Below are positions 18,881 to 24,252 of a stretch of DNA of 33,751 nucleotides, piece by piece. This DNA is from a virus. Below the pieces are notes generated by a model. That model ran no database searches. It had not been told where the DNA came from and saw nothing but the letters and a program-made list of their open reading frames with translations. The DNA lies in IMG/VR virus record IMGVR_UViG_3300022747_000030, positions 1 through 33,751 of that record; one strand, written 5' to 3'. Every line of letters starts with the position of its first letter. The first letter of the stretch is position 1. The position numbers were made by a program, and so were the translations under genes.

Positions 18881-21460
18881 TCAGAAAGGCGCATCGTCCA
18901 TTTCCATCGGTTGACCCAATGCCCCAGCATGCGCCGGGGCCTGCTCTGGTTCTGGCTCGGTTTCGGGCCAGTCTTTGGGGCGATGCCAGCCAGGCTGGCG
19001 CACACCGTTGAGCTGCTTTTTCTTGTATTCCCAGCCCTGCGCCTGCATCCATGTGCGGATCTGCGCTTCAAGCCCGGCATTGGACTTGCCGGCATCCACG
19101 CACAGCGATTTCAGGACATCGGACAGCGTGACGAAATCGGCCAGGTTGTTGACCACATCGCCATGGGCTCCCTTGCCCGGATCGCGCGTCAGAACGTTCA
19201 GCAACTCGCTGGTCACGCCGGTGTCGATCAGGCGGCTGTCCTGCATGGGCACAAACAGCCGGTCTTCCTGGTCGCGGGTGGGCGTGAAGGGCTCGCTCTG
19301 CAGGTAGAGCGCATAGGCCTCGGCAAACAGCTGGCCACGGTACTTGGCCAGCCAATTCGTCTTGACAGGCTTGCGCGCCGGGATTGGCCAGAAACGCCGG
19401 TTGCCCGTGCGGTCACGCAGGTAGGTGGACTCGTTGGTGGTACCCACCAGCACACACTGGCGTGGGTGCTCTTCGATCACCCGGCCGTATGCCGGTCGGT
19501 AACGGTCCACCTTGGAGGTGATGAAAGCCTTGATGGCGGTGATTTCAGCCTTGCCCAGCTGAGACAGTTCACCCAGCTCGTAGCCCCAGATGCCCTGCAC
19601 CTGCTCCTGGCTTTCCTTGCCCTTGCCGATTTCAAACGGCGTGTCGGAATACCAGGCGCTGCTGGCCAGCACTTCCACCAGGGTGGACTTGCCCAAGCCG
19701 CCAGGTCCTTCCAGCACCGGGCAATAGTCGAACTTGCAGCCCGGCTCCATCACCCGGTTGACCATGCCCATGAGCCAATAGCGGCCCACCAGTTCCATGT
19801 ATTCCAATTGGCCCGATGTGAGGGTGTCCGGGCTCTCACCCAGCACATGGATCAACCACTTGTTGATGCGGCTGACGCCATCCCACTTGAGGCCCTGCAG
19901 CCAATTCACGATGGGGTGAAACGGGTTTTCGTAGGCCACCGTCTCGATGGCCTCCATAATCGACTGGCGGCTGATGGCTGGGATGCCGTATTTGGCCGAC
20001 AGCCAGTTGCCCAGCAGCAGATCCGTGGCGCCGATGATCTTGCCCGCGCGGCCATGCATGAAGGGCCAATCCACCCGCGCCTCGATGGCGTTGCTGAACT
20101 GGTTGTAGCCCAGCACGCAGCACAGTTGCTCGTCGTAGCGCAGGGCGTTGATCACCGTCTTGCGCGACAGGTTCCAACGGCCCTTGCTGACATCGTAGAA
20201 GCAGGCCAGCCACGCGGGCAGCGGCGTTTGCCCACTGGCCGCATCGCCCTTGTCTGCGTCAGCGGGGGTTTCGATTTTTTCGGCACCAGTGGGTCCGGGC
20301 TTGTCGGCTGCGGCCTCATCGGGTGGCAGCGGCTGCGCAGTGGCCAGAAACTGCAACACACGCTCGCCATCCCATCCGTCCGTCTCGATGGCATCGGCAG
20401 CGTCCCAGCCATCGGGCTTGACGCCCGGCGCGTCAATCGCCAGCACCTGCACGGTGCACGCATGTTCACGCTGCAGCAGGTGGCCAATGCCCAGCATGGC
20501 GGCCATGCCCGGCTGCTTGTGTGCGGGCAGCCATGGCTTGGCAGCGGCGGCGGCATCGCGCTCATCATCCGTGGTGCAGGCGTTGCGCTCTTTGGCGCTT
20601 AGAGGTTCGCGCTTGCTGTCACAGTCGGGCCAGGCCAGCACCGTGGTGCCCGCCAACCAAGCCCAATCGGCCTTGATCCAGGCCTTGCAGCCCCCTGGCC
20701 AACTGGCCACGCAGTAGATGCCCGGTGCAGCAGCGTCCAGGGCAGCCTGCAGCACATCGCCCTTTTTCTCGCCTTCCACCAGCACCACTGTGCGGCCATT
20801 GGGCATTGACTTACCGGGCAAGTAGAGCGGACGGGGCTCGTCAAACTGCTTCCACTTCCAGGCCAGCGAACTGTCTTTGGTGGATTGGCACCAGGTGTGT
20901 GGCAGATCGTCCTTGCCACCATCGCTGGTGCGAAAACGCACCACATAGCCATGCAGCTCGTCGCCCACGCGGTATTCGCTTGTGCGGGCAATGTCATCGG
21001 GTTTGCGGTGGTAATGCTTGAAGGTGGGCGCGGGCGCATTGACAGGCACCGGGCGCACGGTGGTCCACCCCTCGTCAGTGCGAGGTTTCGCTGCGGCTGG
21101 TGGCGGTACCGGGCGCTCCACACGCTGGTGGGCAACATCGCGCTGCACGCCAGCCACGTCTTCCAGCCCCTCGTCACGGGCCACCATCAGCGCGGCCTTG
21201 CCCATTTCGAGGCCATTGATGGCGGCATACAGGCTGACCAGATCGCCACCCTTTTCGTCGCCCGCGAAGTCGGCCCATTGGCCCGTGGTCAGGTTGACCG
21301 AGCAGCTTGAGCCAGAACCGCCGCTGAGGCTGGAGCTGACCCATTCATGGCCATTGCGGCGGCCACCTGGCAGCCACATGGGCACCAGCGTTTCAACCCT
21401 GGCCAACAGCGCCTCGGCCAGCTCGCGGAATTTGATGGGTGGGAGGCTGCGATCAGACAT
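18881..21460 (-). CDS. TOPRIM primase - VapE/VirE-type helicase fusion
   Basis: 859 aa replication protein. Residues about 40-105 hold a zinc-free CHC2-like start (GGDLVSLYAA). A TOPRIM domain follows with VVLVEGEKKGDVLQAA at 225-240 (Glu229) and the acidic pair in LAWPDCDS near 278-281. After an acidic, Pro-rich linker (about 375-412), the SF3/AAA-like VapE domain carries Walker A GPGGLGKST (585-593), Walker B in WGYELGELS (625-633) and the sensor/arginine-finger block VGTTNESTYLRDRTGNRRF (672-690). It likely primes and unwinds phage DNA. RBS GAGGGGCAAC precedes ATG 21460. Confidence 0.9.
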   Translation of the reverse strand: MSDRSLPPIKFRELAEALLARVETLVPMWLPGGRRNGHEWVSSSLSGGSGSSCSVNLTTGQWADFAGDEKGGDLVSLYAAINGLEMGKAALMVARDEGLEDVAGVQRDVAHQRVERPVPPPAAAKPRTDEGWTTVRPVPVNAPAPTFKHYHRKPDDIARTSEYRVGDELHGYVVRFRTSDGGKDDLPHTWCQSTKDSSLAWKWKQFDEPRPLYLPGKSMPNGRTVVLVEGEKKGDVLQAALDAAAPGIYCVASWPGGCKAWIKADWAWLAGTTVLAWPDCDSKREPLSAKERNACTTDDERDAAAAAKPWLPAHKQPGMAAMLGIGHLLQREHACTVQVLAIDAPGVKPDGWDAADAIETDGWDGERVLQFLATAQPLPPDEAAADKPGPTGAEKIETPADADKGDAASGQTPLPAWLACFYDVSKGRWNLSRKTVINALRYDEQLCCVLGYNQFSNAIEARVDWPFMHGRAGKIIGATDLLLGNWLSAKYGIPAISRQSIMEAIETVAYENPFHPIVNWLQGLKWDGVSRINKWLIHVLGESPDTLTSGQLEYMELVGRYWLMGMVNRVMEPGCKFDYCPVLEGPGGLGKSTLVEVLASSAWYSDTPFEIGKGKESQEQVQGIWGYELGELSQLGKAEITAIKAFITSKVDRYRPAYGRVIEEHPRQCVLVGTTNESTYLRDRTGNRRFWPIPARKPVKTNWLAKYRGQLFAEAYALYLQSEPFTPTRDQEDRLFVPMQDSRLIDTGVTSELLNVLTRDPGKGAHGDVVNNLADFVTLSDVLKSLCVDAGKSNAGLEAQIRTWMQAQGWEYKKKQLNGVRQPGWHRPKDWPETEPEPEQAPAHAGALGQPMEMDDAPF

Positions 21461-21551: not shown

Positions 21552-21854
21552 TCACCAGGCGCTGATCAGCGTCTTGAAGTCAAACCCTGTTGGGGTGCTG
21601 TGGCTGGCGGGCACGTACTCGACCACCGGCTTGTTGCGGTAAGGGACGGTGCGCGTCCTGACGGGGTGCAACTGACCCGAACGCACCATGTTGCGCACCG
21701 TACTGCGCGCCGCAGTCAGTCCTACGCATGCACGCTGTGCCAGCTCACGCATCGTGGGTGCCTGGTCGCTGGTGACCAGTTCTGTGGCCGCGTTGTATAG
21801 CGCCAAACGCACCTCACTGGCCGGCCTGCCGGGTACTCGCTTCTCAAGCTCCAT
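21552..21854 (-). CDS. Small winged-helix/HTH DNA-binding protein
   Basis: 100 aa. Residues about 12-60 read as a helix-turn-helix (ALYNAATELVTSDQAPTMRELAQRACVGLTAARSTVRNMVRSG, split here by position), followed by a wing-like HPVRTRTVPYRNKPVVEYVP. Related small proteins in beta-proteobacterial prophages precede the replication gene. A role in early or replication gene regulation is inferred. It overlaps the end of the upstream gene by 11 bases, suggesting coupling; an 91-base gap follows before the primase. Confidence 0.75.
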   Translation of the reverse strand: MELEKRVPGRPASEVRLALYNAATELVTSDQAPTMRELAQRACVGLTAARSTVRNMVRSGQLHPVRTRTVPYRNKPVVEYVPASHSTPTGFDFKTLISAW

Positions 21855-22099: not shown

Positions 22100-22306
22100 T
22101 CAGTCGCGGCCCTCATCGGCACTGTTCGCCCCGTTGAATTCATCGGAGGCGCAACCGATATGTCCATACATGTGCCGACGAACAATCACCCGGATCAACT
22201 CAGAGACCTTGCGGTCCTCTCGGGATGCCATGCGCGACAGGTCGGTGAACTCACGTTCAGTCAGCCAGCACTTGACGGGCTCGGAGTGTTTGCGGTCATC
22301 GGCCAT
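22100..22306 (-). CDS. Ribbon-helix-helix-like small protein
   Basis: 68 aa from ATG 22306, with a strong GGAGGT ribosome binding site. The core EPVKCWLTEREFTDLSRMA followed by REDRKVSELIRVIVRRHMYGH has the strand-helix-helix rhythm of CopG/Arc-type DNA-binding proteins. Its first residues (MADDRKHSE) nearly repeat those of the gene at 22406-22876 (MANDRKHSE), because both lie in a 112-bp duplicated segment. A regulatory role is inferred. It is transcribed with the early leftward genes. Confidence 0.72.
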   Translation of the reverse strand: MADDRKHSEPVKCWLTEREFTDLSRMASREDRKVSELIRVIVRRHMYGHIGCASDEFNGANSADEGRD

Positions 22307-22392
22307 GGCGACCTCCGTAAAGGGTGGGCGCACCTTGATCCATAGAATGGAAGACCCTCATCAACCACACAGGAAGGACGGGTGCGCCCGTG
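22281..22392. repeat. 112-bp direct repeat, copy 1
   Basis: This is repeated at 22851-22963. It covers the first codons of the minus-strand gene, its ribosome binding site, an inverted repeat and the start codon of a plus-strand ORF. The inner 27 bases (from CATAGAATGG to TCAACCA, 22341-22367) are identical in both copies, while the flanks differ at scattered positions. Confidence 0.85.
22326..22389. promoter_or_regulatory. Inverted repeat GGGCGCACC / GGTGCGCCC (copy 1)
   Basis: The 9-base arms at 22326-22334 and 22381-22389 are separated by 46 bases. The right arm ends exactly at the GTG start codon of the plus-strand ORF at 22390, and AGGAAGG lies in the loop. The left arm lies upstream of the minus-strand gene's ribosome binding site. 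It could act as a DNA dyad for a regulator or as an mRNA stem controlling either gene. Confidence 0.65.
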
Positions 22393-22677
22393 AAAATCGA
22401 AGAAATCACAGACCGCCTCGACCGTTTGCGCTGCGACATGTCTGCAACCTGGACAGCGCTTGCTGCCATGCAGACCGTATTGACGCCAGAGCAGCGACAA
22501 CAGGTGCTGGAAGCCATGGCAAAGGCTTCGGCGCAGAAGCAAGCGATGTACGACGCGCCACTACCCACGCCAGAGGCGCAAGCAGTACTGTCGCGCTACC
22601 GGGAAATGATGCAAGCGTCAGAAGGGCGCGTTTACGAAATGCTGCAAGGCGGATCAAAGCAATTTCAGACGCGCTGA
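22390..22677 (+). CDS. Small helical protein on the opposite strand of the early operon
   Basis: 95 aa from GTG 22390, with AGGAAGG about 11 bases upstream. It is predicted all-helical (IEEITDRLDRLRCDMSATW; LTPEQRQQVLEAMAKASAQKQ; LSRYREMMQASEGRVYEMLQ). It is antiparallel to the early leftward operon and overlaps the 3' part of the minus-strand frame at 22406-22876. A second plus-strand ORF at 22960 follows the other copy of the repeat. The protein-like composition and the paired arrangement favour a real gene, perhaps a moron. No family is recognised. Confidence 0.55.
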   Translation: MKIEEITDRLDRLRCDMSATWTALAAMQTVLTPEQRQQVLEAMAKASAQKQAMYDAPLPTPEAQAVLSRYREMMQASEGRVYEMLQGGSKQFQTR

Positions 22678-22876
22678 GACCACTCAACTCGCCCAGCTCG
22701 TACAGCCACACGTTGTGGACCTGGATTTCTGCGTCCATATCAGACCCCCTGCCCTTACCTGCTGCTGAACGGCGTTGCTCGCGGAGAAATGAAGCCGAAG
22801 TCGGATCTATAGAAAATCCGTCCTGCACGGCCTTCCGGTACGCATCTATTTCGGAGTGCTTGCGGTCATTGGCCAT
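22406..22876 (-). CDS. Early hypothetical protein, C-terminus overlapped by antisense ORF
   Basis: Open for 156 codons from ATG 22876 (MANDRKHSEIDAYRKAVQDGF) with GGAGGCC as ribosome binding site. Residues 1-80 look like a protein: DPTSASFLREQRRSAAGKGRGSD, then DAEIQVHNVWLYELGELSG and SEIALIRLAAF. Beyond residue 80 the sequence is Ala/Ser/Leu-rich and looks like the complement of the plus-strand gene at 22390-22677. The end may therefore be a fortuitous extension or decay. The WLYELGELS stretch closely resembles the Walker-B block of the VapE protein in this window. Confidence 0.5.
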   Translation of the reverse strand: MANDRKHSEIDAYRKAVQDGFSIDPTSASFLREQRRSAAGKGRGSDMDAEIQVHNVWLYELGELSGLSASEIALIRLAAFRKRALLTLASFPGSATVLLAPLAWVVARRTSLASAPKPLPWLPAPVVAALASIRSAWQQALSRLQTCRSANGRGGL

Positions 22877-22963
22877 GGTGGCCTCCGAAAAGGGTGGGCG
22901 TACCTCGCCCCATAGAATGGAAGACCCTCATCAACCATTCAGAAAGGACGGGTACGCCCATGA
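22851..22963. repeat. 112-bp direct repeat, copy 2
   Basis: Second copy of the segment at 22281-22392, with the same order: minus-strand MANDRKHSE start, ribosome binding site, left arm, 27-base invariant core, right arm and plus-strand start codon. Spacing between the arms is 46 bases in both copies. Confidence 0.85.
22896..22959. promoter_or_regulatory. Inverted repeat GGGCGTACC / GGTACGCCC (copy 2)
   Basis: Arms at 22896-22904 and 22951-22959. Compared with copy 1, the sixth base of the left arm changes C to T and the fourth base of the right arm changes G to A, so pairing is kept. The right arm again abuts a start codon (ATG 22960) of a plus-strand ORF. The compensating change supports selection on the dyad or stem. 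Confidence 0.65.
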
Positions 22964-23133
22964 CCAAAAGCGAAGCAGAATCCTTTGCCAACGAATGCAT
23001 CAGGCTGCTCCTTCAGAATCAGCAGGACGCTCTTGGGAAGAGCCCCTGCAATCACAGCCAGAATGCAATTCAGACGGCGCAGGCCCTCGCTGCATTTCGC
23101 AAAGAACTGGTTGCGCAGCTAACTCAGCAATAA
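22960..23133 (+). CDS. 57-aa plus-strand ORF after repeat copy 2
   Basis: ATG 22960 with GAAAGGA about 12 bases upstream. It reads MTKSEAESFANECIRLLLQN, then NHSQNAIQTAQALAAFRKELVAQLTQQ, a soluble helical protein. It shares its upstream region but not clear sequence with the 95-aa ORF. It overlaps the 3' part of the minus-strand gene at 23000-23308. The paired layout with the 22390 ORF suggests two related cassettes. Function is unknown. Confidence 0.5.
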   Translation: MTKSEAESFANECIRLLLQNQQDALGKSPCNHSQNAIQTAQALAAFRKELVAQLTQQ

Positions 23134-23309: not shown

Positions 23310-23525
23310 TCAAACCCCTTGCCCTGCTGTGTTTGCCGCAGTGGTTTGCACCATTGGTGCGGAGGCTTGGGCTTGTTGACGCGCCAAGGCCGCATAGACG
23401 CGATCGGCGATCCGAGGCGGCAATTCATCGGGCCATTTGTCGACCGCTTGATAGGAAATGCCGATTGCGGCGGCTGCGGCAGAAACGCTCCCGCCGAGCA
23501 ATTCGATGGCTTTGGTTTTGAGCAT
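23310..23525 (-). CDS. Cro-like repressor
   Basis: 71 aa from ATG 23525. The N-terminal 50 residues (KTKAIELLGGSVSAAAAAIGISYQAVDKWP then LPPRIADRVYAAL, split here) are the short Cro helix-turn-helix fold, with ISYQAVDKW as recognition helix region. It is divergent from the cI gene across the OR operators, the canonical Cro position. It would bind the same dyads and shut down repressor synthesis when lysis begins. No ribosome binding site precedes the ATG, and the likely -10 is very close, so the mRNA may be leaderless or nearly so. Confidence 0.87.
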   Translation of the reverse strand: MLKTKAIELLGGSVSAAAAAIGISYQAVDKWPDELPPRIADRVYAALARQQAQASAPMVQTTAANTAGQGV

Positions 23526-23530
23526 GCTGA

Positions 23531-23571
23531 ATTGAACCACGGTTCAATATCGTATGTCAACCCATGTTCAA
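23531..23571 (-). promoter_or_regulatory. OR operators and PR promoter for the leftward early operon
   Basis: OR1 is the perfect dyad TTGAACCACGGTTCAA (23532-23547). OR2, GTCAACCCATGTTCAA (23556-23571), matches the consensus at most positions. On the minus strand TTGACA (23560-23555) and TTCAAT (23536-23531) are 18 bases apart; an alternative pair is TTGAAC and TATTGA, 16 bases apart. Operators overlap both promoter boxes, so repressor binding would block cro transcription. The same 41 bases recur at 26723-26763 (34 identities). Confidence 0.82.
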
Positions 23572-23588
23572 TCCATAACCGTCAAAAT

Positions 23589-23604
23589 CACAACTATGGT
23601 TAAT
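23589..23604. promoter_or_regulatory. Weak third OR operator over the cI start
   Basis: CACAACTATGGTTAAT matches the TTGAACCNNGGTTCAA dyad at 8 of 14 positions and contains the cI ATG at 23596. Binding here would repress cI, as Cro does at lambda OR3. The match is weak. Confidence 0.35.
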
Positions 23605-24252
23605 TATTGGGATAGGTTGAAGCCGGAGATGGATGCCCATGACATGGACATCACAAAACTGGCCAAAGCAATGGGCATCAGCTTTCAAGCCGTAGCGAAA
23701 GTGCGAGACGGTGGCAGCTTCGGTACTGAAAACAACATCAAAGCCGCAAAGTTGTTGGGCCTGAACTCTGATTGGCTAGCCTGTGGGAAAGGCCCAAAGA
23801 TATCTGGAGCACAAGGAAACGTAGATGCTGCCCCCGAGCTGCGCAAGGCCAAAGGGGTTCCGGTGGTTGGAGAGGTCAAAGGCGGTGTTGATGGCTACCT
23901 TGAAGAGACGCAATACCCCGTGGGCCATGGCGACGGCGAGGTTGACTACCCCACCACAGACGCCAACGCTTACGCCCTGAAGGTGCGCGGCGATTCCATG
24001 CACCCCCGCTACCGGGCTGGTGAATTCATTGTGGTGGAGCCGGGCATTGAAGCCACGCCCAGCGACGATGTGGTGGTCGGTTTGACCGATGGGAGAAAGC
24101 TCCTGAAGGAGCTGAACTGGATGCGCGACGGGGAGATTCAGCTGCTGTCCGTCAACAACCACTACGCACCACTGACGATCCAGCTCGACAGTGTCAAGTT
24201 CATTCATCTGGTTGCCGGTCGGGTGCGCCGCAACGGCCTGAAGCGGAAGTGA
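23596..24252 (+). CDS. CI-type prophage repressor (Xre HTH + S24 peptidase)
   Basis: 218 aa from ATG 23596; an in-frame ATG at 23554 lies inside OR2 and is less likely. The N-terminal HTH is at about 17-40 (DITKLAKAMGISFQAVAKVR). The C-terminal S24 domain has Ser134 in VRGDSMHP and Lys171 in the GRKLLKEL block as the catalytic dyad. The cleavage region PVVGEVKGGVDGYLEE (89-104) lacks the lambda Ala-Gly and offers Lys-Gly or Gly-Gly instead, similar to many S24 repressors of beta-proteobacterial prophages. It maintains lysogeny by binding OR and OL. Confidence 0.92.
   Translation: MVNYWDRLKPEMDAHDMDITKLAKAMGISFQAVAKVRDGGSFGTENNIKAAKLLGLNSDWLACGKGPKISGAQGNVDAAPELRKAKGVPVVGEVKGGVDGYLEETQYPVGHGDGEVDYPTTDANAYALKVRGDSMHPRYRAGEFIVVEPGIEATPSDDVVVGLTDGRKLLKELNWMRDGEIQLLSVNNHYAPLTIQLDSVKFIHLVAGRVRRNGLKRK

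Follow-up and report, generated by a model that had tools for sequence, protein, structure and literature searches.

A stem-loop encoded twice on the early-operon strand of this phage genome closes, at its outer end, on the complement of the start codon of a small gene of the opposite strand, and comparative sequence analysis has shown that its 9-bp outer helix and a second, covarying helix belong to the minus-strand RNA. The two copies are members of a large and apparently undescribed element family, a description of which was not found in the open-access literature. The explanation favoured here, on a modest balance of probability, is that the element specifies a C4-like antisense RNA, a stem-loop that is processed by RNase P and faces the leader, ribosome site and start codon of the small gene on the other strand. 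It is put forward more tentatively that such RNAs could be a distinct class of RNase-P-processed antisense RNAs, a plug-in control part of temperate phages that is placed opposite dozens of unrelated, fast-exchanged small genes and couples their silencing to the lytic transcript.

Repeated elements and genes of the window

The window, which is the whole stretch of DNA that was analysed, comprises 33,751 bases and is a virus record of IMG/VR. Its early operon is read leftward, starting with a Cro-like gene (23540) and extending to a VapE primase (21460-18881), and two small plus-strand genes adjoin this operon, each starting directly at the 3' arm of an inverted repeat. The placement of the repeats between early-operon genes, as described in the earlier note, is upheld. 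The genes of this region are as follows:

18881..21460, minus strand: VapE-type primase/helicase of the early operon (Pfam VapE-like, 2.5e-73)
22100..22306, minus strand: early-operon gene, likely ribbon-helix-helix (Arc/NikA-like), with a GGAGG site
22390..22677, plus strand: small gene plus1, 95 aa, predicted three-helix protein; its own frame has the best coding score
22640..22876, minus strand: early-strand ORF behind copy 2, with a MANDRKHSE start and a 33-aa VapE-like fragment (about 22640-22741)
22960..23133, plus strand: small gene plus2, 57 aa, ORF from the abutting ATG; coding score positive, not decisive
23310..23540, minus strand: Cro-like regulator, first gene of the leftward early operon (PHROG transcriptional regulator)
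23554..24252, plus strand: CI-type repressor (HTH and peptidase S24; Pfam Peptidase_S24, 1.3e-16)

The Cro-like regulator matches Pfam P22_Cro just below the cut-off (2.6e-6, 27.5 bits), and the CI-type repressor is encoded on the strand of both small genes, downstream of them. The likely ribbon-helix-helix gene, which starts 19 nt left of the 5' arm of copy 1, has weak matches (Pfam NikA-like, E 0.025; PHROG Arc-like repressor, E 0.032). The AlphaFold2 model of plus1 consists of three helices (pLDDT 89), and neither a convincing family match for plus1 nor a meaningful fold match to this confident model was obtained; the family search with plus2 gave no match, and no relatives of the ribbon-helix-helix and plus1 proteins were found by peptide patterns. 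The 33-aa fragment, which resembles the YELGEL motif region of VapE, is about 50% identical to the VapE proteins of relatives (tblastn, E 1e-5) and may be the remnant of a second vapE gene or a small VapE mimic. A short protein encoded upstream of vapE (21552-21854, minus strand) is kept in about 40 related loci and has a weak likeness to the Ren exclusion protein or an HTH domain.

The two copies of the repeat (22281-22393 and 22851-22963) lie 570 nt apart and are 88% identical, with 14 differences over a length of 113 nt, not 112 bp as first reported. The paired arms, the minus-strand gene starts (MADDRKHSE at 22306 and MANDRKHSE at 22876, both with GGAGG sites) and the plus-strand start codons, which adjoin the 3' arm directly in both copies, are confirmed. 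The inverted repeat is fully paired, with 46 nt between the arms in either copy, and the invariant core is present, having a length of 28 nt rather than 27 (22340-22367 and 22910-22937; none expected in shuffles). The features of the two copies are:

22326-22334 and 22381-22389: copy 1 arms, GGGCGCACC and GGTGCGCCC, 9 nt each, then GTG at 22390
22896-22904 and 22951-22959: copy 2 arms, GGGCGTACC and GGTACGCCC, 9 nt each, then ATG at 22960
22319..22389, minus strand: predicted structured antisense RNA of copy 1; P1 is formed by 22381-22389 with 22326-22334, and on the 3' side R73 is 22325 and C74C75 are 22324-22323, with CUUU next
22889..22959, minus strand: predicted structured antisense RNA of copy 2; P1 is formed by 22951-22959 with 22896-22904
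22326..22389, plus strand: putative start element of copy 1, with the arms, a TAGAAT -10-like box (22343-22348), leader and AGGAAGG ribosome site, GTG 22390 abutting
22896..22959, plus strand: putative start element of copy 2, with TAGAAT (22913-22918) and ribosome site AAAGGA, ATG 22960 abutting the 3' arm

The minus-strand folds have energies of -32.9 kcal/mol (z -4.2) for copy 1 and -41.9 kcal/mol (z -7.0) for copy 2, and the two copies score 55.4 bits (E 6e-13) and 57.8 bits (E 1e-13), respectively, with the covariance model R2 of the family, and 51.3 and 56.4 bits with the model R1. When 14 random differences are simulated in 113 bases, the probability of at least one compensatory pair is 0.08, that of keeping all nine pairs with at least one compensatory pair is 0.012 and that of an invariant run of at least 28 is 0.20. 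The significance obtained from the two window copies alone is modest, and one compensatory change is weak evidence; the change in the arms, presented in the earlier note as direct evidence for selection on pairing, is thin support when taken from two copies and becomes strong together with the covariation seen across the family. Near or exact DNA matches to the window element gave nothing of substance in phage, plasmid and viral collections, and the single 19-mer genome match (L003, an unrelated Aquiluna contig) was dismissed as chance.

Element family and strand of the conserved structure

With the VapE primase/helicase as bait, 59 related phage loci were fetched, and scanning these for perfect inverted repeats abutting start codons yielded elements in L053, L023, L011 and L055, which align with the window copies despite different arms. 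When viral contigs were scanned with a pattern of GGGCGCCC arms that end at ATG, 49 contigs were found, about 47 of which have one common consensus that the pattern did not demand, and a second scan, in which two arm positions were left free, found 96 stretches; the pattern matches L065 and L089 (tandem repeats) and L087 were discarded. With the covariance model R1, 34 matches were then obtained in the VapE loci and the window together, and 113 in the other loci. In total the family comprises 126 distinct elements in 102 phage loci, 22 of which have two or three copies, and whole phage records contain one to three matches at E < 1e-6, clustered where there are several. Most contigs are metagenomic. 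Similarity in VapE suggests phages of Comamonadaceae (Variovorax phage VarioGold, Acidovorax phage Aval), neither of which has an element match with the covariance models, and VapE phages without the element exist. One phage (L028) has three very similar elements with a different small gene behind each, and the arm-to-arm lengths of all loci peak at 60, 63 and 66 nt, in steps of three.

Base pairing was assessed with 44 minus-strand sequences, 500 shuffles and controls in which the partner strand was slid. The outer helix, P1, has 94.3% standard pairs compared with 81.8% in shuffled sequences, and its covariation is 0.487 compared with 0.226. When the second helix, P2, which was recovered independently by RNAalifold, is included, the values are 92.3% versus 75.9% for standard pairs and 0.577 versus 0.249 for covariation, with 91 double-change cells versus 25; the observed values are matched in none of the 500 shuffles, and slid partners give 0.08-0.13 (maximum 0.131). 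The selection on base pairing that the earlier note had claimed is therefore borne out by covariation across homologues. The consensus of the 44 members consists of P1, the second helix stacked upon P1 and a single apical loop. Five phages (L021, L101, L118, L160 and L110) each have two elements with arms that are unrelated, yet self-complementary.

The non-Watson-Crick cells of P1 indicate on which strand this structure is selected. Read on the plus strand, they are 63 A.C against 3 G.U, and the ratio is 56:1, 35:1 or 20:1 when one sequence per cluster is used. A plus-strand A.C is a minus-strand G.U, and the selected structure is therefore that of the minus-strand RNA, which is the early-operon (cro-cII) strand. 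The substitution biases of loops (C/T 718, G/A 393) and of P1 (G/A 158, C/T 32) are opposite, so that mutation bias is not the cause of the A.C excess. At position 4 of P1, a 5' T occurs almost only with a 3' A (Fisher 0.0014), and the minus-strand RNA is more stable than the plus-strand RNA in 112 of 120 cases, the plus RNA folding as well. The selected molecule would thus be RNA of the early-operon strand, with single-stranded DNA of the same strand as a possible variant; of the "paired DNA or RNA element" proposed earlier, the pairing stands and the molecule is corrected to minus-strand RNA. Unpaired arm substitutions in further copies, named beforehand as evidence against pairing, do occur as plus-strand C.A, and these are read as G.U on the minus strand.

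RNase P signature and comparison with C4 RNA

In the flank logo of the family the most conserved positions outside P1 are the three bases past its 3' strand, R-C-C on the minus strand. Among 120 elements, G1-C72 is found in 120, U-1 in 119, R73 in 115 and C74C75 in 115, and G1-C72, R73 and CC occur together in 111; in window copy 1, which has the GTG start, position -1 is C. RNase P reads such a signature in tRNA precursors, including the RCCA interaction (PMC11143913). By its sequence, the minus-strand RNA resembles a substrate of RNase P. In the available text of PMC5320573, C4 RNA is described as being cleaved by this enzyme at the 5' end of P1 and as having loops that block ribosome sites.

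The Rfam model of C4 antisense RNA (RF01695) matches L106 (27.1 bits, E 0.001) and L097 (24.4 bits, E 0.005) on the minus strand over the full model, and these matches reside in the stem and both ends. The gathering threshold of this model, 45 bits, is reached by none of the elements tested, and there is no match at the window copies or most others. The two inner hairpins of C4, its P2 and P3, are absent from the 44-member consensus of the family. True C4 RNAs, scoring 54-66 bits, are found in three of the phages at separate loci downstream of vapE (L051 8827-8915, L050 8785-8873 and L031 8834-8924), with a Bro-N-like antirepressor gene following at 9304 in L051, the one locus inspected for this, and the family model R2 does not report these true C4 loci. 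By the tests run, the family is C4-like and lies outside C4.

Other Rfam matches were set aside: the psRNA2 match in the window (16 bits against a cut-off of 65) is taken as noise, and miRNA-like and anti-hemB matches have low scores and lie off the elements. A Burkholderia anti-hemB RNA match near an element (L082 1035-1102) is below threshold, with 31.3 bits against 49.5. An intrinsic terminator on the minus strand was also rejected, the U tract being no longer than about three U.

Coupling to small genes and the explanations considered

An ATG or GTG follows the arm exactly in 123 of the 126 elements, a count to be read with the knowledge that an abutting ATG was required by the pattern scans, and a GG pair too by the second, so that part of the set is biased; the 34 members from the window and VapE loci were found without patterns, but with a model partly trained on pattern matches. 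A ribosome site is present 6-8 nt ahead of the start codon in most elements, inside or beside the 3' arm. The abutting ORFs comprise 125 distinct sequences in 86 clusters and are coding, as shown by the differences at codon positions 1, 2 and 3 (708/531/1029 in 31 homologous pairs), and almost no matches are found for the small proteins in Pfam, PHROGs, PADLOC and NCBIfam. The suggestion that the segment is a modular expression cassette is in agreement with these data, 126 elements being placed ahead of largely unrelated small genes. The further suggestion of a switch for both neighbours is not supported: only 37 of 125 cases have a divergent start and its ribosome site no more than 70 nt away, compared with 17% at random places, whereas the plus-strand start abuts the arm nearly always.

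A TAnnnT box lies 43-46 nt upstream of the start codon in most members, with the A and T invariant in 50 of 50 relatives, which suggests a candidate promoter; no -35 box is recognisable upstream of this -10-like box in the window or in the family flank logo. On the left side, a CII-family gene (PF06892) on the opposite strand is identified by Pfam for 14 of 57 left neighbours, and a profile places CII opposite at 33 elements, in no case on the same strand. A CI-type repressor, in contrast, is on the same strand at 19 elements and on the opposite strand at none, about 0.6-1 kb downstream. At many elements the position and direction are those of lambda P_RE.

According to the favoured antisense explanation, the plus strand of each repeat would be the start of a hypervariable small gene, with a -10-like box, a short leader and a ribosome site, and the minus strand would specify a stem-loop RNA of about 70 nt within the early (lytic) operon transcript. 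RNase P would cut this transcript between CAU and GGG (between 22390 and 22389 and between 22960 and 22959), as in C4 of P1/P7, and the stem-loop, released or embedded, would pair with the small-gene mRNA and silence the small gene during transcription of the early operon. Once CI shuts the early operon, the small gene would be free for expression. It follows from the position that the 5' half of the stem-loop is a perfect complement of the small gene's transcript start, leader and ribosome site. The loop and leader are nearly alike in both window copies, so that either RNA could act on both small genes. It could also be that the hairpin, being antisense to its own gene, shields the small gene from antisense pairing instead.

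There is a minor but real chance that the structure acts in cis in the early mRNA, by antitermination, by processing or stability, or in translation of the next gene, such as cII, the overlap with the small gene being incidental. For antitermination, lambda has nutR/tR1 at a comparable place, and the structure is indeed on the early-operon strand, often adjoins cII and is sometimes 18-32 nt ahead of the next start codon. However, the tie to an early gene is loose (37 of 125 within 70 nt), whereas that to the small-gene start is found in 123 of 126, and VapE phages without the element occur. What favours the antisense reading is that the structure goes with the start of the opposite gene, rather than with the following early gene, and that its 5' half is an exact complement of the leader and ribosome site of that opposite gene.

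The remaining explanations have much lower probabilities. T4 soc, e and 49 have hairpins that act as read-through insulators, and a plus-strand insulator of this kind, in which transcripts started upstream fold and hide the ribosome site and those from a promoter in the loop do not, would account for a ribosome site that in most members is in or beside the 3' arm at 6-8 nt from the start codon, and for the -10-like box within the loop, and the plus RNA folds too. It is strongly disfavoured and very unlikely, since the arms tolerate plus-strand C.A and not G.U (63:3), the reverse of what is expected. Scarcely more probable are double-stranded DNA operators, in which inverted sites for a phage regulator, such as a CII-type activator or the RHH protein, would lie on either side of a P_RE-like promoter directed at cI. 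The arms are often palindromic (GGGCGCCC), and the lambda P_RE position and direction are matched, but arms within one phage can be unrelated yet self-complementary, and a dyad DNA site cannot produce the asymmetry between plus and minus strands; a promoter at the element is still compatible with the antisense explanation. The least probable is a strand-specific hairpin of single-stranded DNA, an attC-like site of replication or cassette recombination. G.T beats A.C in DNA too, and a different gene lies behind each element, but such a site needs neither the exact start-codon coupling nor the RCC motif, and the genes are interspersed with opposite early genes, without gapless arrays or any mobile cassette observed. 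By inspection, the recognised core sites and gapless arrays of an integron attC are absent.

Several known systems can be compared with the family. In IS10, the stem-loop antisense RNA-OUT covers the 5' end of the opposite mRNA, RNA-IN, with its ribosome site and start; the likeness is in a stem-loop antisense to an opposite mRNA start, whereas RNA-OUT belongs to a transposon, has its own promoter and is unrelated in sequence. In lambda, P_RE is an antisense promoter between cro and cII directed toward cI, in a region with OOP and with nutR as an early-strand RNA element; unlike this region, with which no common sequence is seen, the elements here have a hypervariable small gene inserted behind the candidate promoter. 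A T4 soc-type hairpin on the gene's own strand was rejected, the wobble asymmetry indicating the other strand. C4 of phages P1/P7 (RF01695, clan CL00128) is likewise a stem-loop RNA of about 70-80 nt in prophage immunity regions, and the family resembles it in ends (U|GG...RCC) suited to an RNase P substrate and in the predicted block of a ribosome site. The family differs from C4 in being without the P2/P3 three-way junction and in being encoded directly opposite its presumed target, C4 proper being upstream of its target genes. The C4-like Group 1 sRNAs of Acinetobacter baumannii are also many per genome and cut at a GG motif from longer transcripts, but they are Rfam-recognised C4 with a' and b' loops, and the available text (PMC5320573) does not connect them with a small-gene start codon on the other strand. 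The SAS/ESAS of cluster K mycobacteriophages likewise place a repeated inverted repeat and a ribosome site immediately ahead of the start codons of a variety of small phage genes, with a repeat sequence that varies between phage groups; in the available text they are 13-bp GGGATAGGAGCCC and 17-bp inverted repeats with spacers of 4-13 bp, unrelated in sequence, and neither a strand test nor an RNase P signature is part of the description (PMC3203893). With GGGCGCCC consensus arms and 55-69 nt from arm to arm, the family lies outside the SAS/ESAS definition.

Through this family, a pool of hypervariable small phage genes is connected with a conserved structured RNA, and the element provides a search handle for accessory genes, nearly all of the 86 clusters found here being of unknown function. 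Many genes with no relation to each other probably share one standard RNA part for their control; if the antisense reading is true, a phage could swap its cargo genes without rewiring control, and the C4 idea would be widened from antirepressors to general cargo control. One cargo family (...LGQALRGMARLQARQEML...) is found in L044, L082, L107 and L121 behind element subtypes that differ in their arms and -10-like boxes, which suggests that cargo has been exchanged between these phages. About 25 cargo proteins (alignment A9) resemble one very diverged three-helix family.
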